Source of the DNA: a virus
Strand: one strand, 5' to 3'
Virus record (IMG/VR): IMGVR_UViG_3300047370_000004
Span: 1 to 32,268 of that record
Length of the DNA stretch: 32,268 bases
Part shown: piece by piece, positions 3,702 to 25,184 of the stretch
How positions within the stretch are numbered: the stretch's first letter is position 1
How the letters are laid out: every line of letters starts with the position of its first letter
Program-made: the position numbers and the translations under genes
Notes under the pieces: model-generated
The model's input: the letters and a program-made list of their open reading frames with translations, nothing else
What the model was told of the DNA's origin: nothing
Database searches by the model: none

Positions 3702-3721
3702 AAAGGGGCCTATTTGGCCCC
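3702..3721 (-). terminator. Weak terminator-like hairpin at the integrase stop
   Basis: Minus strand GGGGCC-AAATA-GGCCCC followed by TTTC. The integrase stop codon sits in the loop. The T-run is short, so this may attenuate rather than stop transcription from the integrase into the polymerase gene, or may protect the 3' end. Confidence 0.4.
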
Positions 3722-4540
3722 CATCAGCTTGGCTATTTCCAGCCGTGTTTCAGGTGTCTGATGGACATATTTGGCAGTCGTTTGAAGACTACGATGCCCT
3801 AATTGTTGAGCTACGGTAACAGTAGGTAGCTTTAGCCCATTAGCCATGCGTGTTGCCGCAGTGTGACGTAGGATGTGAAAGACAAACTCTTTGTCACCCT
3901 TAGCGATCTGGTAACGCGCTTCGTCCCACACATTGTAAAACTTGCGGTGGCTGTAGTGTTTGCCTGGGTTAAACTCTAGTGCCATCAGGGCAGCAAAGGT
4001 TGACCCAGCGCACACTACGTCACGGTCGTCACCGTTCTTGGTGTCAGTCAGGTGCACGGTGCATAGGTCGCCTTCGACAGTCACGTTGTCTGGAGTGATC
4101 GATAGGATCTCGCCATGACGCATGCCTGTATTCAAGGCTATGGTACACATGTGACGCATCCACCAGTACTTGCCGTCTTTGTAAGACTTCAAGAATGCGT
4201 CTAGTTGTTCGGACTCTTCTTCAGACAGGTAACGTACACGATTCGTTCTCACCTTAGCGAACTTTATCTTGGGTAGTCTGTCGATCTCTTCGAGATCCAG
4301 GGCATGCTTTAGGATCGCACTGATAGCCGCCTTGTAGTGGTTGACTGTGTTCTCGGATAGACCCACGTCCAACAGGTGTAGACTGAAGGCATGGATGTCA
4401 CGGGCTGTGACCTCTGAGATGTCCTTGAAGCCAATACTCTTAAACTCACCAAAGCGGTGCATCTTGGCACGGCTCTCGTCTAAGTGCTTGTCGCGCCAAA
4501 TGTTAGGGCCTTCGGTGTTTACAAAATCAATCAAGTTCAT
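3710..4540 (-). CDS. int: Tyrosine recombinase integrase
   Basis: 276-residue phage integrase. The N-terminal ~95 residues are a helical core-binding (SAM-like) domain, and residues ~100-276 are the catalytic domain. Visible catalytic residues are R141 (TGMRHGE), K168 (TKNG), H222 and R225 (HILRHT), H249 (LGHR) and the nucleophile Y258 (AKYVH). Start ATG 4540 has a GGGAG ribosome-binding site. The usual N-terminal arm-binding domain of lambda-type integrases seems to be absent. It lies about 0.5 kb from the attP candidate at 5052-5112, the normal arrangement, and just upstream of the RNA polymerase gene, as in several marine T7-like phages. It should recombine attP with a host tRNA-Met gene. 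Confidence 0.96.
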   Translation of the reverse strand: MNLIDFVNTEGPNIWRDKHLDESRAKMHRFGEFKSIGFKDISEVTARDIHAFSLHLLDVGLSENTVNHYKAAISAILKHALDLEEIDRLPKIKFAKVRTNRVRYLSEEESEQLDAFLKSYKDGKYWWMRHMCTIALNTGMRHGEILSITPDNVTVEGDLCTVHLTDTKNGDDRDVVCAGSTFAALMALEFNPGKHYSHRKFYNVWDEARYQIAKGDKEFVFHILRHTAATRMANGLKLPTVTVAQQLGHRSLQTTAKYVHQTPETRLEIAKLMGAK

Positions 4541-7530: not shown

Positions 7531-10500
7531 TTAGTTTCCTTCTAGTGTAGCTATACGCGCCTCTAGCGCATCACATTTAGCCGACAACTCTTGTACGGCC
7601 TTCACAAGAATAGGATACGATCTAACGTAATCCGCTTCTAACTTTTCTGGGTTAGCCCAATTCACCAAGCGTGTGCGTGATGACGATGAGTGATCTAGCT
7701 CAACATCGTGCAACTCTTGCGCAATAAAACCAATGTCTGGCTTTGCACCTAGTGACCCATCGCGGCGGTTCCAAGTGAACTGCACTGGGCGCATATCGTT
7801 GATGAAATCTAGGCCATAAGGAATGTCTGCGATTGCAGTCTTATCGCGTTCATCTGACAAGCTGCTGATTGTCTGCACGTTGCAGCGTAGCGTGGCAATA
7901 TTAGCATTGCCAAGTGTGATTTCGTTTGTTGCAGTTGAGCTTGACGGCATACTTTCAAAACCAAGGCAAACCACATTAGAACCCGTAGTCAGCTCGTTAG
8001 TGGTTACACCGCCTTGGCTCTTACCAGCCAATCGACCGATAAGTACATTATTAGACCCTGACGTGACGGCATTCCCCGCGGCAGAACCCAAACCAACATT
8101 GTCGTCACCTGAAGTCACTGTGCTTAATGAGCTTGCGCCAAGTGACGTGTTTCGTTGCCCTGTGGTTAACTGATCAAGAGCATTACGTCCAATACCAGTA
8201 TTGTAGCCACCTGTCCCACCAGCATAACCAGCTTGATAACCCACAAAAGTGCAGTAATCACCGCCATCCATATCATAGCCAGCTTCTTGGCCTATAAGAA
8301 CGCAATAACTAGAATAATTAGAAGTGTTATAAGATGCACCAGCTAAGTATCCTATAGAAATACTGCTTGTGCCAGTTGCGTCTGCATTACCACCGATTGC
8401 AATACTTTCACTAAAAATCGCTTGTGTATTATACCCAACAGTAACTGCGTAATCACCAGAATACATAAGAGAATTGGAGGCATATCCTACGGCCACATTA
8501 TAATATGGGCTGCTTGTCGAGGCACGTCCCAAAGCATCATACCCTACAGCAGTGCTTCTATAGTGATTACCATCTGACATAGACAGCGCACCGACTGCTG
8601 TTGATGTATCACCAGAATTATCATTACCAGCAGCATATCCAATCGCTACTTGGTAGTCTTTTGATGAACTATCAAGGTTCCCAGCAAGTGCGCCAACGTA
8701 AGTGCCACCAGTTAGAAAGTCGCCGCCGCCACTCCAATACCCAACAGAAGTTGTGTAGCTGTCTGTTGTATTATCACGCATTGCAGCGTTTCCGACTGCT
8801 GTGTTGTAAGCCCCTGTCGTTAAATCGCGTCCAGCAATTCGTCCCATTGCCGTATTAGATGATCCAGTCGTAGCATTAACTAGAGCGTCAGAGCCAAATG
8901 CTGCACTACTATTACTTGTATATGCAGCTAATGCATTATAACCGACTGCTGTATTGCTACCACTACCAGCAGCAGATGATAAAGCATTACTACCTATTGC
9001 CACCATTGTAGTGGCTGCTGTTACAGACGATAATGTATTGTTGCCAATGGCAATGTTATCTGAAGCAGGATCATCAGGCCACGCGCTTTGCCAAAGCATC
9101 GCCGTGCCAGTTTGGTCAGGCAGTGTGATAGTTTGGTCTGACGTTGCATCCGTCGTAAAACTTGTTGATGAACCATCTTCGCCGATTTGAAGTTTGCCAG
9201 CATCAATCTTTGTTTTATCGTAATGAAAGGATGCTGATGTAAAAGTACCTGTTGAACCACCAACTGGGACAGCACCCGCAATTTCAACTTGCATCTCAAT
9301 GTGACCATGACGGCTTGCGGATAAATCAAAGCTGTCTATATATGAAGCTATGCCCGTGTAAGGTGCTTGGAGTCCCGCACCTGCGCTGTCTGTTCCATAA
9401 AAACGTAATCTTCCAATTTCATCATCAACGGCAGGGCTATCGCTGTTTTTCCACAATATACAATGAACACCTGACACACCATCATTGTTTGATTTAATAT
9501 AAAAATCAGAAGATGCAAAAGAGCTATTTAACGTATCTTCAAAAGTTATATCATCTTGGAAATTGATCGTTTGGCTGTCACCTAGATCACTTAAAAGCAA
9601 TGTGCCTGTTCTGTCAGGTAGCGTAATGGTGCGGTCTGCGGTAGGGTCAGTTGCTTGTAGGTTTGTATAGAATGTCCCTGCCGCGTTCTGATATGAAAAC
9701 GGCAAGCCGTTAGCAACTAGAATACCATATTGATCTACTGTAAGACGATTTGAGCCATCAGTGTATATTTCAACACTATCTGGGCCACCGTCTTCACCAG
9801 TTATATAGGCACTTCCGTTAGACCCAAAGATTAGCTTGTCGCCACTTGCTACCGACACATCACCGTTTACGTCAAGAGCGGTTGCTGGCGAAGTCGTCCC
9901 AATCCCCAAGCGTTCCGCACTCGCATCCCAGAAGAACTTGGCGTTTCCAGAAGTGTCGTAGAAGCTGATGTCGCCAGAGTTGTGGCTTATAGAAAGGCGT
10001 GTTGTGTTTGAATTGTTTGCATCATTTGATGTTTGAACAAATAAACTACCCGCATTGCTTCTAAATCGAGTGTTTACATCTGTGGTATCTGTTTCGACTA
10101 AACGGATAGAGGGCGTTGTACTCTCTACATTCAGCGCGTCAGCCGTGACAGTGCCAGTTACGTCAACACCGCCACTAAAAGTCCCGCCACTGACGTCCAT
10201 CTTTGTGCTTAGATCAACGGATGACCACTGATAGTCCGTACCGTTCCACTCTAGGTATTGACCATTTGATGCACCAGAAGTGTTCAGGTGGGTGTCAACA
10301 AGAGGGTCTACATTGGCTGCATCAGTGACATCTGCGTTAGCCTCCACACCATCTAACTTTGACTTGTCAGAGGATGACATTAGACCATCAGCAGAGGTCG
10401 TCGCTACCGTAGTAATACCAGATGTGACCCAATCAGTACCATCGTAAACTAGAAGTTCGTTATCGGTTGTGTTGAAGTAGAGGTCGCCCTCGTTCACAGC

Positions 10501-12332: not shown

Positions 12333-13458
12333 TTATGAAAGACCAGTGATCATACCACCGTCAGCATAGTTCATATGCTTCAATGAGTATTCGCCGACGA
12401 TAAAGTGACGATCAGAGTCACCATTCTTCGACAATAGTGTACGTGAGAACGGACGTAGTACACATGAACGCCACATTGACGGATCAATTAGGAATGCGTG
12501 TGTAGTCAACTGGTGGCGGTTTAGGACCACTTTGTATTCGCCGTATGGGGACACGTACAGGTCAATCACGTTGACCAAGTTGCGACCCTGTTGGATCTCA
12601 CGGTTACGACCAGACGCCGCTGCAAAGTCAGCAACGATCTGAGCATCCGCTGGTTTGATCATTAGAACTGATGGATCAGAACCGTTGTTGAAGCAGTCTT
12701 CACCAAGCTCTAGGACTTTCGCCTCTGTTAGAGCGTCAGTTGCGTTGGCACCAGCGTCGACAGATGTTGAGATCTGTTGTGTCGCTGAGTCCATCTCACG
12801 CGCTACTGAGCTTGAGCCAGTTGCTTTAGCGTTGTCGACACCAACATAAGCACGTTCTAGGTCGCGCTTAATTTCTTTTAGTGCCTTACCAAGTTGGTCA
12901 TTAATGTTCGCCTAAGGTCGTTAATCTTAGACCGCCCGAGGGCTGCTTATGCTTTCACATAAGATCAGACTATGTCATGTCAGTTAGTAACTGACCGATG
13001 CGCTTCCACTCACTTGAGTGTACTTCCTTGCGGAATAGTCGTTGCACGTTCCTCTTGCGAGGCTTCGCTCAAAGTTACCATATCTTTCGACTTAGGCTTC
13101 CTTTGAATTCACATCGTTTATACTACGCTACCATTCTTAACGCAGTTTCTTTCGCTCTACCATAAGTTGCAATCGCATCAGCTGTTGCACTGACTTGAAA
13201 CGCCTTATGTAGTATCTGCGTGTTCTGGGTACGCTCTACAGCATCTGTAAGAGTTGCCATAGTTGCGTCTGCCCCTTCCACCTGTGCGTTGTTCGCAGCG
13301 GCTGCAAGTGAGTCTTCTAACCAACTGAAAGTACGAGCAGAAACCTTTTCTGAGCGCATCATTGTGAACATAGGCGTATCTGTGGGCGTTATATCCGAAA
13401 TGATATCTGATACGTCTTCTTTCTTACCGACCTGGTCGTAAGTAGTATATGTAGCCAT
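12333..13458 (-). CDS. Major capsid protein, gene split by a group I intron (join 13458-13140, 12898-12333)
   Basis: Spliced product is 294 residues: 106 codons plus one base from exon 1, and two bases plus 188 codons (with stop) from exon 2. The opening MATYTTYDQVGKKEDVSDII and the VEGADAT motif match the DUF5309/SU10-type HK97-fold capsid family. Joining at the predicted sites gives RAKETA-Y-QLGKALKEIKRD, where the junction codon T|AC makes Tyr; KETAYQ is the expected family wording. Exon 2 then continues through DLERAYVGVDNAKATGSS to MITGLS without a stop. Without splicing, exon 1 reads into a TAG at 13123 and exon 2 has no start before 12794. Start ATG 13458 has an AGAAGGATG site. It builds the capsid shell on the scaffold encoded just upstream. 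Confidence 0.92.
12899..13139 (-). ncRNA. Group I intron (group IA type) in the major capsid gene, no homing endonuclease
   Basis: 241 nt. P1: exon ACUGCGU (13146-13140) pairs with guide GCGUAGU (13128-13122), with a U-G pair at the 5' splice site. P10: exon 2 ACCA pairs with UGGU (13133-13130). P3: CGAUGUG (13116-13110) with CGCAUCG (13002-12996). The P/Q region AAGGAAGCCUAAG...UGAGCGAAGCC is present, and P6 is CCUC-GCAA-GAGG. P7: GACUA (13040-13036) with UAGUC (12972-12968). P7.1 UUCC-GCAA-GGAA and P7.2 CACUC-AAGU-GAGUG indicate subgroup IA. P8 is GUCAGUU-ACU-AACUGAC. P9 is CUUAUGU-GAAA-GCAUAAG. The last base is G (12899). It contains no ORF of useful size, so it is not mobile by itself. 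Confidence 0.92.
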
Positions 13459-19189: not shown

Positions 19190-22100
19190 TTAGGCTTGTG
19201 ACAACATGCCTGGTGCCATTGGTGCGTTTAGTGCGCCTGGTGGCATCTGTTGTTGCCTACGTTCTTCATCGTCATCCATAGCCATTTCCAGGGCAACTAA
19301 TGCTGCCATGACAACCGCTAGTGGATGTGCATAGAACTGGATGACCTTGTTGTCAGCCTTACGGAACTCTTGCTGGATCATCTTAGATGTCACAGGCATT
19401 AGCTTCTTGGCTAACTTTGGGTTGATTAGGTAAACCCAGACAGGATCCACAGCAAACTCCGCAGCCATACGAGTGTAGTCTTTGTATGTTTGCTTTGTTT
19501 TTGGTGTAAGACCCGATGTCATTACCTGACGAATAAACCTTACGGCTCTTCGCTCATTTGGGTTTTTAGGTGAATACGCCTCGACGTTCTCCTGTAAATC
19601 AACGATTTCTGCATATGCCTTCTTCTGCGTGGGGGACATCTGTTCCCAATCCGCATCCAGTAGTGGCTTAATTGCACTGTCGGTAAACGATCCTGGTGGC
19701 GTAAAGTCAGAACGACCTACAATACCAGTGCCTGGTTTAGACGACTGCTTTCTGTTGATAAAGTAAGAGTATACCTCTTGTTCACCCTTACCATCTAGTG
19801 GGCCTAAGGTGATCGCATGAGAGATCTCATGTAGAAGGGTGGTCAGTGCTTCAATGTCAGTGACATAGGTACCGTCACCCTTGTCCGCACCAGGTTTCAT
19901 TGCCCAGATTGTACCCTCGGTGCCCTTGCCCTGTTTCTTAGGTCCTTTACGTTGGAACATCCCACGGGCATCACCAATTTTAGCTGGGTCTTGGCCTGTG
20001 TCCAACTTAAGCAAGGTGTTAAGCTCGTTTTGGGACATAGCCAGTCTAACGACGACACCTAGTTTCTTCGCAAACTCGACAGCGTCATTGAAGTTACTGA
20101 TGCCATCTTCAAGTTCGCCACCCTTCAGTCCAATTTGGAACTGAGGACGAATAAGCTCAACGACAGCCTGTTTGTATTGGGCTGGTGTTACTTGGGGCTT
20201 TTCAGCGGGAATGACATCGGGTCTGGGTCCGTCAGGATTGGCTCCTGGGCTGGTATCACGGAGGATTGGCTCTGTAGGGCCTTCCTGGCTTGGGCCATCT
20301 CCACTAGGCCCTCGATAAAGTCCTTCATCGACTCCTTGGGGACTTGGCTGATTATTGACGGCTCCGTCTCCGTCTGCATCGGGGAGTGCTTCTTGGATTT
20401 GGTCATTTGTTATTCCTTCGGCTTCAGCCAACATGATTGCAGCATCTAGATAATCATTATCTGCGCCTCTTCCAGGGGCAACACCCAAATGCCTAAACAA
20501 TTGTTTCTCAGGGTACCACATAAGTGCCTGAAAGTCAGCCGTCTCGATGTTGTATCCAAGATCACGTAGTTTAGCGATTGCAGCCTTTGTAACATCACGC
20601 ATATAAGAGCGTTCATTTGGCCCTTTAGGCTGTGCTTGTAGTTGCGGCTTTAGATTTTTAACATGTGTGCCAGTCTTCTTAAAGAAGTTTGGCTTTTGGT
20701 GGTTCACACCGTTGTCGATCTTATACTGCTTGTAGAACTTCTGATACTTTTTCTCTACATTAGTCACAAAATCGTCAAACAATGCTGGATCTTTATTGAT
20801 CTCACGTTTACCGACGCCCATTTCTTTTAGCGTCTGGTTGATCATCTTCTGCTCAAGTTTACCTGAGCCTTTCATAGCATCCCTGACGTTAACACGACCT
20901 TTGTCAAGATCTGGGTCTGCTACAAACGGACGACCGACCAAGCGGTTCCACATGCGCATCCACCAGATGTCCATCGTTAGTGGATCATAGTTGCCACGGA
21001 TGTTCTGGTAGAAGCCCTGACCAATCTTTGGGCCGATGACGTAAGAGCCTTTGACCTCAGCGTTTGCACCCTCAGACGATGGTACCTTGATTTCGGTTCC
21101 ATACTGCTCGTTAAAACGTGCAATGTAATCATTAAGCTCATTAACAGTGAAGTCACTATCTAAGAAGTCCTGGATTGGCATGTTAGTGCCTGACGCCTGA
21201 TATGCATTGAAGAAGTCAAATGCTTCAACCATAGATGCATTACGTTCGCCACCTTTCTTCCAGGTTGACACAGGCATTGTACCGTTGTCCATAAAGTGAC
21301 GGAAAACCTCTAGAGCATACTGGAAGTTATCCGCAACGGCCTGACCGTTAGACGTAACAGCTAGTGCAAAGTCAAATGCAGCTTCTGCATCAGGTGACTG
21401 GGTGACACGTGGGTCCACAAGAGACACCACACGCTTCGCGGCTTTCAACTTACGGTCATACCATCCGATGGCGTTAGCATCACTCTGTAGAGCGTTTGCA
21501 GCTTCTGTCGCCATGTAGGTCGAGATGATGTCGACGTTCTCAGGTGTGTACTCAAACGGTTCATCACGGCCTGTTGCTGCCTTCCACTTCTCGTACATGT
21601 AGTCAGCTGCTTCAACCAATGTGCGCTTTTGTTTAGGCTTGTATGTGCCTTCACGCATCTTCTGAATATCAGCTTCGCTTGGGGACGAGTTCAAACGTGT
21701 GATATCAATCTCGTTCTCTGGTATCTGTAGTGGATTGACGTAGGACTGCAATGCTGGGTCCTGAGGTACAGAAGGATCACTTGTAGGATCTACGTCAGGC
21801 AACATTGGTTCGTCTGGAGACACACGTGACGCCTGTTGACGTGTCACACGGTCCACATACGGCTGTATGTAAGCATCAATAGCTTCCTGGGGTACACCAG
21901 CCTCTTCTAGCTTCTGCACTTGTTCCTGTGCGGCTGCTACTGGGTCTGAGCCTAGGTTGTTCGCTAGAACATCCAGAGATGTAATCAGACGTCCCTTCTG
22001 TACACGGTTCAGATCTGGATCTGTAGTAACACCCTCGACCAACTCAGCGTTCATTGCCTTGTTAGCCTCGATGCCACGATTGTAGTTCTCTTGGGTTGTG

Positions 22101-24352
22101 AACTGTGGTCCAAACTGCGGTGCCTGGGACATGACATCAGGTGTCGGTGTGTCCTGGGCGGGTGTTTGGTCAATCTTTGGTATATTGACGCCACCGCGCT
22201 GGGCTAAAAGTTGGTCTGGGGCCGCTGCACGTTTTACTACGGTGTCTGGGGTGTTCAAATGCTGGTTAATGACAGGGATAATGTCATTTAGGTTACGGAT
22301 CTTGTTAGTGCCGCCGTCCAAGTTCTTGCGAATGTCACCAAATACGTCTTCGAGGGCCTTAACATCGGGGAATGCGGCCTCGATCTCGGTCATAGCAGCC
22401 TTTAGGCCATCACGATCTAAGCCAGTTCCTGACAAAATGGTGCCAACTGGGCTATTGTCCTTGTCGACTTGAGGTAATCCACCAAGTTCAGCTGCTCGGG
22501 CGTCGTCTTGTTCTTTCTTTAGACGCTCTGCGGCAATTAAGGACGGACCAACGGGGTCTGGTAGTGTCTCTTTGTTTTCAAACTTGTTTACAAAGCGGTT
22601 AACTGCGGATCTGCGCCCTGTGACTGCGTCAATAGCACGTCCAGCACCTACTGCACCAAACTGATAGGGTAGTGAGCCGCCCATAGTGGCGATAGCAACG
22701 CCCTTGTTTGCCATACCTGAGATGACTTTAGAGGGATCATAGGTCCCATCTTCACGTGTAAATGGATTGAACGTGTCAGTGAACTGACTGATGCCGCCCT
22801 TTGTGCCATTCTTGAAGAGATCTGTAAGCTGATTGCCTTCGCGCATCAAATTGGCAATCTGTTGTGCCTCTACCGTTGGCGGTAGTAGACGCATGATTGC
22901 ATCGAAGTTCTCTTGCGTGACCTTAGATTTGACTTTGTTCTTGGACTGTCGGACTGCAACCTGTGCAGCTGCGTAGTCGTCAATGAGTTGGTCTAGTGTC
23001 GCAGCCTGTTTTGGGTTCAAGTACTTCTTGACGGCAGGGTTAGCGACAATCTCTTTGATCTGACCGCTGATTTGCTCGTGTGTTGCCTCTAGTGCTTGTT
23101 TTGCATCACCGTTGCTTCCGACGTCTTTTAGATTGTAGCCATCTTGTTCCGCAATGGATCTTATGCGCTGGGCAAGAGATGCTGCGGCTTGTGACTCTGT
23201 GTCTGACAGGTTGGCGGGATCAACAAGTTTACCGTCTTTGTTAAACAAGGTTCGTGAAACTGTAGCCTCACCAACTGTACTACCTGCACCAGCCAAACCT
23301 TCAATGATAGTATCTTTTGCGCTGAACTGGTCGCCGACTGCCTTAGTTGCGAGAGCTTCGCCAGACGCCTCTGACCCACCCTGGGCGACAGCCTGGCGTT
23401 TGAGAGACTTACGGATGATCTGTTGTGCTACGAGTCCCTGACCAGCGAAGTCGGCTGCGGCGACAACAAGACCTCGGGTCAAGCCCCGCTCGTTTGCTTT
23501 ATCCATTAGATCTTTATTAGCAAACAGCTTCTTTGTTGCTTCAGGATCTGACAGGTCAATACCGTTCTCACTTAGAAAGCTGTTGACCTCGTTAGCATAC
23601 TCACGACCAAGACCGCCAAGTGACATGACAGCTGCACCCGCGACTGGGTTACCTGTCACAGTTGTAGTAGCTGCACCAGCGGCAATCTGCGGTACTGACT
23701 CAGCGATGGTCTCACCCATGAATGCCATGAAACCAAGCGGGTCATCGGTTACTGTGCCAAGCCACCCCATAAAGCTGTCTGGAGCTTCAGCAAGAGACTG
23801 AGCATATGCATCGGCTGTAGGTGAACGCTCGAAGCTGTCTGCAAGTTTAAACAGACGACCAGCTGTTTCTGAGTTTGCACTCAAACGCTTCAAGTATTCA
23901 GATGGGTTCTGCGCTGCGTCTTCACGGTTTTCTAGACGCTTATCTACGACTTGCTGATAATTAACATTAGCCTGGGGAGACACACCATATTGTTGCATCA
24001 TTGAGTTGACCTGTTTTGGATCACTCATGTTTGATGCACGACTTGCAAATGCTTGGTTGGGTACACCAGCACGTAGTGCCTCGTCGTAACGAATTGCCTC
24101 AGGGCTTCTGTTGACGTCGGTAAGTGCGCGGAGATCAGCAGTTGCTAATGCAGTTGGTAGTGTCGCTGCTGTCTGGACTGCGCCGCGTTGGATTGCACGA
24201 CCAACACCAGTGCCCTCTGGGTTAGCTGGGGTCGCTGGGGCCACAGGGGCTGCACCTAACTTCTTTTTAAGAGCAGCTAGAGCACCTTCCCGTGTAGCTC
24301 CAGTGACCTTGTATTTCTTGCCGTCTGGAGCCGTAATAAGGAACTCAGCCAT
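19190..24352 (-). CDS. Giant internal virion protein with HExxH motif
   Basis: 1720 residues from ATG 24352 (MAEFLITAPDGKKYKVTGAT), which has an AGGATAAG site and follows the previous stop by 10 nt; an in-frame ATG at 24412 would overlap that gene. Size and position match the ejection proteins of podoviruses (T7 gp16-like role: travels with DNA into the cell envelope). Residues ~195-275 carry small-residue-rich hydrophobic stretches (QIAAGAATTTVTGNPVAGAA). Near residue 1508 it has LLHEISHAI, an HExxH zinc-protease signature, with E1632 (RMAAEFAVDP) as possible third ligand. A phrase NIETADFQALMWYPEKQL is shared with other large phage virion proteins. No lysozyme or transglycosylase motif was found. 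Role and enzymatic activity are inferred. Confidence 0.8.
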   Translation of the reverse strand: MAEFLITAPDGKKYKVTGATREGALAALKKKLGAAPVAPATPANPEGTGVGRAIQRGAVQTAATLPTALATADLRALTDVNRSPEAIRYDEALRAGVPNQAFASRASNMSDPKQVNSMMQQYGVSPQANVNYQQVVDKRLENREDAAQNPSEYLKRLSANSETAGRLFKLADSFERSPTADAYAQSLAEAPDSFMGWLGTVTDDPLGFMAFMGETIAESVPQIAAGAATTTVTGNPVAGAAVMSLGGLGREYANEVNSFLSENGIDLSDPEATKKLFANKDLMDKANERGLTRGLVVAAADFAGQGLVAQQIIRKSLKRQAVAQGGSEASGEALATKAVGDQFSAKDTIIEGLAGAGSTVGEATVSRTLFNKDGKLVDPANLSDTESQAAASLAQRIRSIAEQDGYNLKDVGSNGDAKQALEATHEQISGQIKEIVANPAVKKYLNPKQAATLDQLIDDYAAAQVAVRQSKNKVKSKVTQENFDAIMRLLPPTVEAQQIANLMREGNQLTDLFKNGTKGGISQFTDTFNPFTREDGTYDPSKVISGMANKGVAIATMGGSLPYQFGAVGAGRAIDAVTGRRSAVNRFVNKFENKETLPDPVGPSLIAAERLKKEQDDARAAELGGLPQVDKDNSPVGTILSGTGLDRDGLKAAMTEIEAAFPDVKALEDVFGDIRKNLDGGTNKIRNLNDIIPVINQHLNTPDTVVKRAAAPDQLLAQRGGVNIPKIDQTPAQDTPTPDVMSQAPQFGPQFTTQENYNRGIEANKAMNAELVEGVTTDPDLNRVQKGRLITSLDVLANNLGSDPVAAAQEQVQKLEEAGVPQEAIDAYIQPYVDRVTRQQASRVSPDEPMLPDVDPTSDPSVPQDPALQSYVNPLQIPENEIDITRLNSSPSEADIQKMREGTYKPKQKRTLVEAADYMYEKWKAATGRDEPFEYTPENVDIISTYMATEAANALQSDANAIGWYDRKLKAAKRVVSLVDPRVTQSPDAEAAFDFALAVTSNGQAVADNFQYALEVFRHFMDNGTMPVSTWKKGGERNASMVEAFDFFNAYQASGTNMPIQDFLDSDFTVNELNDYIARFNEQYGTEIKVPSSEGANAEVKGSYVIGPKIGQGFYQNIRGNYDPLTMDIWWMRMWNRLVGRPFVADPDLDKGRVNVRDAMKGSGKLEQKMINQTLKEMGVGKREINKDPALFDDFVTNVEKKYQKFYKQYKIDNGVNHQKPNFFKKTGTHVKNLKPQLQAQPKGPNERSYMRDVTKAAIAKLRDLGYNIETADFQALMWYPEKQLFRHLGVAPGRGADNDYLDAAIMLAEAEGITNDQIQEALPDADGDGAVNNQPSPQGVDEGLYRGPSGDGPSQEGPTEPILRDTSPGANPDGPRPDVIPAEKPQVTPAQYKQAVVELIRPQFQIGLKGGELEDGISNFNDAVEFAKKLGVVVRLAMSQNELNTLLKLDTGQDPAKIGDARGMFQRKGPKKQGKGTEGTIWAMKPGADKGDGTYVTDIEALTTLLHEISHAITLGPLDGKGEQEVYSYFINRKQSSKPGTGIVGRSDFTPPGSFTDSAIKPLLDADWEQMSPTQKKAYAEIVDLQENVEAYSPKNPNERRAVRFIRQVMTSGLTPKTKQTYKDYTRMAAEFAVDPVWVYLINPKLAKKLMPVTSKMIQQEFRKADNKVIQFYAHPLAVVMAALVALEMAMDDDEERRQQQMPPGALNAPMAPGMLSQA

Positions 24353-24362
24353 ATGTCTTATC

Positions 24363-25184
24363 CTAGTTATTCGTCGTGGATGGTACTTCCTCGATGGTGT
24401 ACCCATCGTCATCAGGGGCCGTCGTATTGTTTGACGGCGTTATGCCCTGCTGCTTGGCAGCTTCGTCGGTGATGCCATTCTGTTGTAGCTGCTTAAGAAT
24501 CTCTAGCTGAGGTTCCAACCAAGAAATCCAAACTTGCTCATCATCTGTCAGCTTAGGAACAGGTGTCTGGAACAAAGCCATCTCTCGATCCGTGATCGCA
24601 CCCTTGGTTTGTGCTGTGTATGCCAGGGTCGCGTTGACCTGGAGTTCTGACAAAATCAAACGCTTGGCTGCTCTTTTTGGGTCACCGAATCCTGATCGAT
24701 CTAGTGCATTCTGAGCACGACCAGCAATTGGCCCTGTTAGGTTAGGGTCATTCCGTAGATCAGTGAGTAGACCTTCGAGACGTGCGATCTCAGTGTCATC
24801 TGCCTTCTCAGGCTCGTCTTCTTGCTTTGGAGCGTTCATCTTACGCATCAGATCCTGACGACGCTGGTCTTCCAGCATACGTTCCTCTTCGATCCGCATA
24901 CGCTCCATGTCAGCCTGGCGGTTGTAGTCCTGGATCTGACCATATTGGTTGAGCATACTACCGTAGACAGCGTTGCCACCACCGTTGGCAGATTGACCAA
25001 GACCAGCACCACCAATGCGCATCATGGCCTCACCTAGGCCAATACGGTTGTCAGGTATCTGTGGCATACGATTGGAGCCACGCGCGTTACCTGTGGCACC
25101 AGCTAGGACGGGCTTTTGGCCCATCATCATTTGAGGGTTCTGTGAGAGAACGCCGTTCTGTTGTGGGAACATGAAGTTAAACAT
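24363..25184 (-). CDS. Probable internal virion protein, 273 aa
   Basis: Start ATG 25184 has a strong GGAGGT site. The N-terminal half is Gly/Asn/Met-rich and the middle (residues ~85-115) is a charged coiled coil (ADMERMRIEEERMLEDQRRQ). The C-terminal half is helical (GPIAGRAQNALDRSG, LTDDEQVWISWLEPQLEIL), followed by an acidic tail. It lies between two other virion proteins in an order similar to T7 gp14-gp15-gp16, so an ejection-apparatus role is likely. I cannot match a named family. Confidence 0.6.
   Translation of the reverse strand: MFNFMFPQQNGVLSQNPQMMMGQKPVLAGATGNARGSNRMPQIPDNRIGLGEAMMRIGGAGLGQSANGGGNAVYGSMLNQYGQIQDYNRQADMERMRIEEERMLEDQRRQDLMRKMNAPKQEDEPEKADDTEIARLEGLLTDLRNDPNLTGPIAGRAQNALDRSGFGDPKRAAKRLILSELQVNATLAYTAQTKGAITDREMALFQTPVPKLTDDEQVWISWLEPQLEILKQLQQNGITDEAAKQQGITPSNNTTAPDDDGYTIEEVPSTTNN

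Follow-up and report, generated by a model that had tools for sequence, protein, structure and literature searches.

A compact group I intron without an endonuclease gene, predicted to splice, in the SU10-type major capsid gene of a virus record

The major capsid gene of a 32-kb virus record very probably carries a compact, endonuclease-less group I intron that belongs to a horizontally moving pool with many insertion sites in SU10-type capsid genes; we infer its splicing from the structure. The record was analysed over its whole length of 32,268 nucleotides (the window) and contains T7-type RNA polymerase, portal, terminase, scaffold and integrase genes. The intron was located on the minus strand at 13139-12899 (241 nt), between the two exons of a capsid gene that looks broken and is almost certainly working. 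A preliminary description of this DNA had reported this one intron; beyond it, the window intron was found to occupy one of about twelve sites in the capsid gene, and single alleles among the matches listed held as many as four introns.

The interrupted capsid gene and its intron

When the two exons were joined, the capsid protein comprised 294 aa and matched SU10_MCP (PF17236) with 267.8 bits over profile positions 2-291 of 292; the unspliced ORF pieces scored 97 and 119 bits separately. The preliminary description had assigned the protein to DUF5309, which is the same family under a name that Pfam has since replaced by SU10_MCP. The spliced protein also resembled the solved SU10 capsid protein at the level of sequence similarity (PDB 7z45, E 6.8e-38). 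The predicted spliced junction reads ACTGCGT + ACCAACTTGG (in its longer form, GAAACTGCGT-ACCAACTTGG). Codon 107 became TAC after joining, restoring the Tyr in KETAYQ as had been expected, and the same reading was present in intron-free relatives. Intron-free alleles, which had been suggested as something to look for in related phages, were observed in contigs L002-L006, where the capsid gene had no insert and the protein identity was 97-98%. Intron-free alleles with an identical exon target were found in L003 and L004 (codon 107), L005 (codon 19) and also L045.

Elsewhere in the window, a tyrosine integrase gene (3710-4540) adjoins the T7-type RNA polymerase gene, and the presence of the integrase suggests that the phage may be temperate. 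No tRNA gene was found in the window. Within the structural region, positions 19190-24412 encode a 1740-aa protein; a metalloprotease-like motif, LLHEISHAI, lies close to its C terminus. Among GTDB contigs, only four capsid relatives were retrieved, so no firm host could be assigned.

The Rfam search of the window returned RF00028 (Intron_gpI) at 13149-12946 over the full model length, with 68.5 bits and an E value of 1.4e-15 (gathering cut-off, 50 bits), bearing out the group I intron that had been proposed to interrupt the capsid gene at 12899-13139. This was the sole Rfam match in the window, and no second group I intron was detected in the record. The features of the gene and the intron are as follows.

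13140-13458, minus strand: major capsid gene exon 1 (codons 1-106 and the first base of Tyr107), from the translation; SU10_MCP 97 bits
12333-12898, minus strand: major capsid gene exon 2 (remainder of Tyr107 to codon 294, and stop); SU10_MCP 119 bits on the ORF part
12899-13139, minus strand: predicted group I intron with IA-like anatomy and no endonuclease ORF; RF00028 68.5 bits, model R1 227 bits (score of a training member), fold z -4.16
13140-13146, minus strand: P1 exon side ACUGCGU, with the 5' splice site after U
13122-13128, minus strand: P1 internal guide GCGUAGU, G pairing with the splice-site U
13130-13133, minus strand: P10 intron side UGGU
12895-12898, minus strand: P10 3' exon side ACCA
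13110-13116, minus strand: P3 5' strand, from the 12-intron alignment
12996-13002, minus strand: P3 3' strand, from the 12-intron alignment
13069-13106, minus strand: P4-P5, from the 12-intron alignment
13046-13068, minus strand: P6-P6a, from the 12-intron alignment
13035-13040, minus strand: P7 5' strand GACUAU (guanosine-binding helix), from the 12-intron alignment
12968-12973, minus strand: P7 3' strand AUAGUC, from the 12-intron alignment
13007-13034, minus strand: P7.1 and P7.2, from the 12-intron alignment, with a compensatory pair relative to L262 in P7.2
12979-12995, minus strand: P8, from the 12-intron alignment
12912-12963, minus strand: P9, P9.1 and P9.2, from the 12-intron alignment
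12899, minus strand: intron terminal G, from the sequence

The set of helices was complete (P1, P3, P4, P5, P6, P6a, P7, P7.1, P7.2, P8, P9, P9.1, P9.2 and P10); every helix named in the preliminary description was among them, as were P9.1 and P9.2 in addition. The 5' splice site carried a U:G pair and the last intron base was G, again as described. The minimum-energy fold had a z of -4.16, none of 200 shuffles being equally stable, and it recovered P1, P3-P6a and P7.1-P9.2; P7 was missing because it is a pseudoknot, which is beyond the folding program. The covariance model R1 gave the window intron 227 bits, which is the score of one of the 12 introns from which the model was built. When the introns of 12 relatives were aligned, standard pairs made up 96.8% of the pair cells (less than 42% were paired in slid controls), and two-sided changes were observed in 30 of the 54 pairs, a number that none of 500 shuffles matched. 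P7.1 and P7.2, the extra stems between P7 and P3, both covaried. The subgroup is IA-like as assigned from these two stems, Rfam offering a single group I model; this agrees with the IA anatomy without endonuclease that had been read from the sequence, the intron being 241 nt long. The intron of L262 had 5 differences from the window intron in 241 bases, three of them in loops and two that together swap U-A for C-G in P7.2. P10 changed jointly with the exon at codon 222 (UAGCC/GGCUA vs UAGUC/GACUA) and at codon 19 (CAUUUC/GAAAUG, CAUUAC/GUAAUG and UAUCAC/GUGAUG). The covariation, the compensatory pair of L262 and the upkeep of P10 are signs of a working ribozyme, for which splicing is predicted.

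In the proposed mechanism, the intron RNA would fold on the late transcript, and in P1 the guide GCGUAGU would receive the exon end, ACUGCGU. Guanosine bound in P7 would cut after the U, the freed exon would attack past the terminal G with P10 aligning the 3' exon, and the joined message would encode the full 294-aa capsid protein. The unspliced message would terminate after 111 codons, ahead of the ribozyme core.

Introns at other sites and in other capsid families

Ten of the first 80 relatives listed carried an insert; codons 7, 19 and 222 were the positions used, and codon 107 was not among them. Introns were placed by an intron-core pattern scan, a codon-107 junction scan, our own covariance model and a splice-site search that required U before the intron, G at its end, P1 pairing and capsid homology. 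At least 76 compact introns of 235-312 nt were placed in at least 50 related contigs, a set that includes near duplicates (e.g., L123/L177/L309 and L108/L144). About twelve intron sites were occupied among the matches listed, at codons 7, 19, 23, ~26, 51, ~56-60, ~84-87, 107, 116, 222 and 225; apart from codons 7, 19, 51, 107, 116, 222 and 225, these positions carry an uncertainty of a few codons, with approximate placements near codons 26, 56-60, 84 and 87. One intron was present in 33 of the 50 contigs, two in 10, three in 5 and four in 2. Four compact introns were found in the capsid genes of L083 (1-1809; codons 19, 51, 116 and 225) and L311 (3434-5338; codons 19, 51, 107 and 222). An automatic placement of one L311 intron at codon 22 was rejected, its sequence (TCGGACAT, then T) being that of the codon-19 site. 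A more distant SU10-type gene, in L096, had four core matches. All 37 introns searched with Rfam in 28 records were above the cut-off, with no further group I intron in those records, as were the introns in ten further loci, including all four of L311. A near-identical intron was present at the site of the window intron in the independent contigs L262, L250 and L317. A GC-rich contig (L138, 2677-5467) also had a tight group of four core matches to this intron family.

The preliminary description had anticipated that such an intron would hide the capsid from ORF-based annotation, and phage C72C1 (OQ984150.1; complete 34.9-kb genome), whose capsid gene (8530-9731) carries a compact intron, provides an instance. 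Its public annotation splits the gene into two CDS, both named 'major head protein', and places spurious ORFs between them; the gap between the two is the compact intron.

No endonuclease gene was found inside the placed introns, and their length of 235-312 nt leaves no space for one. HNH_3, HNH, GIY-YIG, T5orf172 and LAGLIDADG_1 were searched for in 22-28 intron-bearing records without a match; these records were mostly fragments but took in 31-40 kb contigs and the complete C72C1 genome. The HNH search detected its target in L324, L348, L354 and L189, showing that it works on such fragments and that its negative result is meaningful for the HNH family. When a different core motif was used, the scan reached distant SU10-type genes. 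In L324 (3184-4260), an intron after codon 18 of the SU10-type capsid gene holds a 215-aa HNH gene and lies 2 nt from the codon-19 site. Endonuclease-bearing introns of the SU10-type gene exist, and they could supply cutting in trans or resemble the ancestors of the compact forms.

In the first pattern scan, about 72 of the 120 contigs listed had the intron in a capsid gene, 37 of these being SU10-type by tblastn (counts among the matches listed). The remaining capsid cases fell in PHROG families 3437, 283, 1357, 334, 267, 14242, 10, 371/4523 and 247, as called by searching representatives against PHROGs and cluster mates by BLAST, so that related introns were present in capsid genes of at least nine PHROG families besides the SU10-type. 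Other listed introns were in DNA polymerase, RNA polymerase and ribonucleotide reductase genes. Since the scan pattern was derived from SU10 introns and covers the matches listed, the capsid share is no estimate for all phage introns. A second scan, made with another motif, again matched several capsid families. The non-SU10 capsid families are out of reach for homing to a homologous site. We suggest, tentatively, that a compact endonuclease-free group I intron lineage may have specialised on phage capsid genes, taking in about twelve SU10-type sites, with as many as four used in one gene, as well as capsid genes of at least nine further PHROG families, perhaps through the most abundant message for RNA-level insertion or the most frequent exchange in mixed infections.

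Horizontal movement and rival explanations

Judged from the sequences, the capsid intron pool occupies about twelve positions in relatives, and its members have reached identical positions in diverged phages by horizontal movement. For the codon-222 site, L115 and L158 had introns that were 93% identical and capsid exons that were 63% identical; at codon 59, the corresponding values for L168 and L137 were 98.5 and 87%. Same-site introns were thus far more alike than the surrounding capsid genes, indicating that the introns move between phages. The intron tree clustered by insertion site (14 changes, compared with a mean of 23 in shuffles), and the window intron was 77-80% identical to the codon-222 introns, indicating mostly same-site spread and occasionally a new site. 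The preliminary description had considered the intron old or trans-mobilised. This reading gained partial support from the horizontal spread and from the five endonuclease families not found in the intron-bearing records.

Exon differences within 12 nt of the junction numbered 24 between intron-bearing and sister alleles compared with 9.3 expected (P 0.005 by random placement), a small signal drawn from nine pairs. Near codons 107, 222 and 225, intron-free pairs had no excess and their differences were below average, showing that the flank excess at these sites is linked to the intron's presence. For codons 19, 51 and 116, the excess was also present in intron-free pairs, and two intron-bearing/intron-free pairs at codon 19 had no flank difference at all. 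When the final 430 nt of L063 and the window were compared, they were near-identical apart from one base and the three bases right after the codon-222 intron of L063 (GTG TCC to GTT AGC); long co-conversion tracts were not seen in this comparison, only about 10 nt. Short altered tracts would be expected if DNA repair copied the intron with little co-conversion, or if P1/P10 pairing were under selection, and the junction-flank signal could reflect the latter rather than co-conversion. Movement would occur mostly by DNA recombination that takes a few exon bases with it, set off by a trans-acting endonuclease or, in mixed infections, by ordinary recombination.

That the exons are separate ORFs would also be expected of a dead insert in a defective genome or a misassembled contig; the capsid would then come as two polypeptides or be absent. 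We consider this very improbable, because the exons are open and the protein nearly unchanged, compensatory change maintains the ribozyme structure even between 98%-identical introns, and the intron recurs nearly unchanged at its site in three independent contigs. A working intron might have been retained because it regulates capsid production, by delaying or tuning it. The capsid gene is usually the most expressed late gene; the intron sits in it, and in-frame stops fall no more than 40 nt from every placed 5' splice site. However, this stop signal is weak because other frames also hold early stops, and the premature stop before the core was set aside as a selected feature for the same reason. 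Close relatives lack the intron, and its position and number vary freely, which is a better fit to a tolerated mobile element; regulation is an improbable reason for its retention.

As to how the intron spreads, a free-standing endonuclease of the same or a co-infecting phage may cut intron-free alleles at the intron site, with repair copying the intron and short flanks, and we rate this route at not quite an even chance. Such collaborative homing has been described for phages with ORF-less introns (PMC3984707, PMC10448857), and it would agree with the same-site spread among diverged phages, the short altered exon tracts at junctions and the HNH-bearing intron near codon 18/19 in L324. However, the five endonuclease families were unmatched even in the long contigs and C72C1, and about twelve sites would demand several endonucleases. 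The many sites, the absent endonuclease and the preference for the most abundant late message would all be accounted for if the excised intron entered the abundant capsid mRNA at any 5-7 base match, followed by reverse transcription and recombination; reverse splicing is one proposed path to new sites (PMC3984707). Guides rewritten for about twelve sites of a single gene, the many unrelated families whose capsid genes are affected, and related introns at different sites in the intron tree (e.g., codons 26 and 59 in L137) point in the same direction. A reverse transcriptase would be required, and insertion at the RNA level would keep the exons intact, yet the change of GTG TCC to GTT AGC in L063 is hard to reach by single silent steps. 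Same-site clustering of the introns favours homing to known sites for most events, and reverse splicing appears unlikely overall.

Precedents and significance

Capsid introns and compact multi-intron phage genes are already known, the precedents being LittleE and the Jug phages (PMC3706429, PMC12363816). In mycobacteriophage LittleE, an intron that is probably group I interrupts the major capsid gene, and its splicing was proved by RT-PCR and protein sequencing (PMC3706429). The two cases share the major capsid gene, the U before the intron, the G at its end and the intron-free relatives. However, the LittleE intron is 819 bp long, carries a putative homing endonuclease and occupies one site in an unrelated capsid family, whereas the introns predicted to splice here are represented by one of 241 nt, lack an endonuclease and occupy about twelve sites in one capsid family. 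The compact group I introns of Jug phages measure about 206 nt, one gene can hold several of them, and their splicing was seen in metatranscriptomes (PMC12363816). Short introns and several per gene are common to both systems, but Jug phages are huge, and each genome has about 18 introns, distributed over terL, nrdD, polymerase and other genes, along with many endonuclease genes; here the genomes are small, introns were found only in the capsid gene and the tested endonuclease families were not found.

In ICP1, RNA-proved introns are present in the tape-measure and terminase genes, three of them in one structural gene (PMC10448857). As in the capsid genes studied here, a single structural gene holds several introns, and intron content varies while the exons hardly change; the ICP1 introns differ in encoding HNH endonucleases and in lying in a tail gene. 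Bastillevirinae likewise have multiple introns per phage gene, with two or three group I introns in one gene and splicing observed in vitro and in vivo (PMC11878797). These introns have a mean of 802 bases and are found in polymerase, terminase, thymidylate synthase and ribonucleotide reductase genes, and PMC11878797 never mentions capsid. No such pattern was described in the literature on group I introns with SU10-type capsids or on marine capsid introns, in a search that covered mainly openly accessible papers. Neither the intron density nor the apparent capsid preference was encountered in this literature.

Specialists would be surprised that a single capsid gene can hold four compact introns, that about twelve sites are used and that such introns recur in unrelated capsid families. 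Capsid genes serve as markers and signs of completeness for metagenome phages. An allele with one to four short introns appears broken or missing to gene callers, and the annotation of C72C1 has already been split in this way. Further, intron-plus and intron-minus alleles, many sites and very close relatives are at hand, offering a natural experiment on the movement of endonuclease-free introns.
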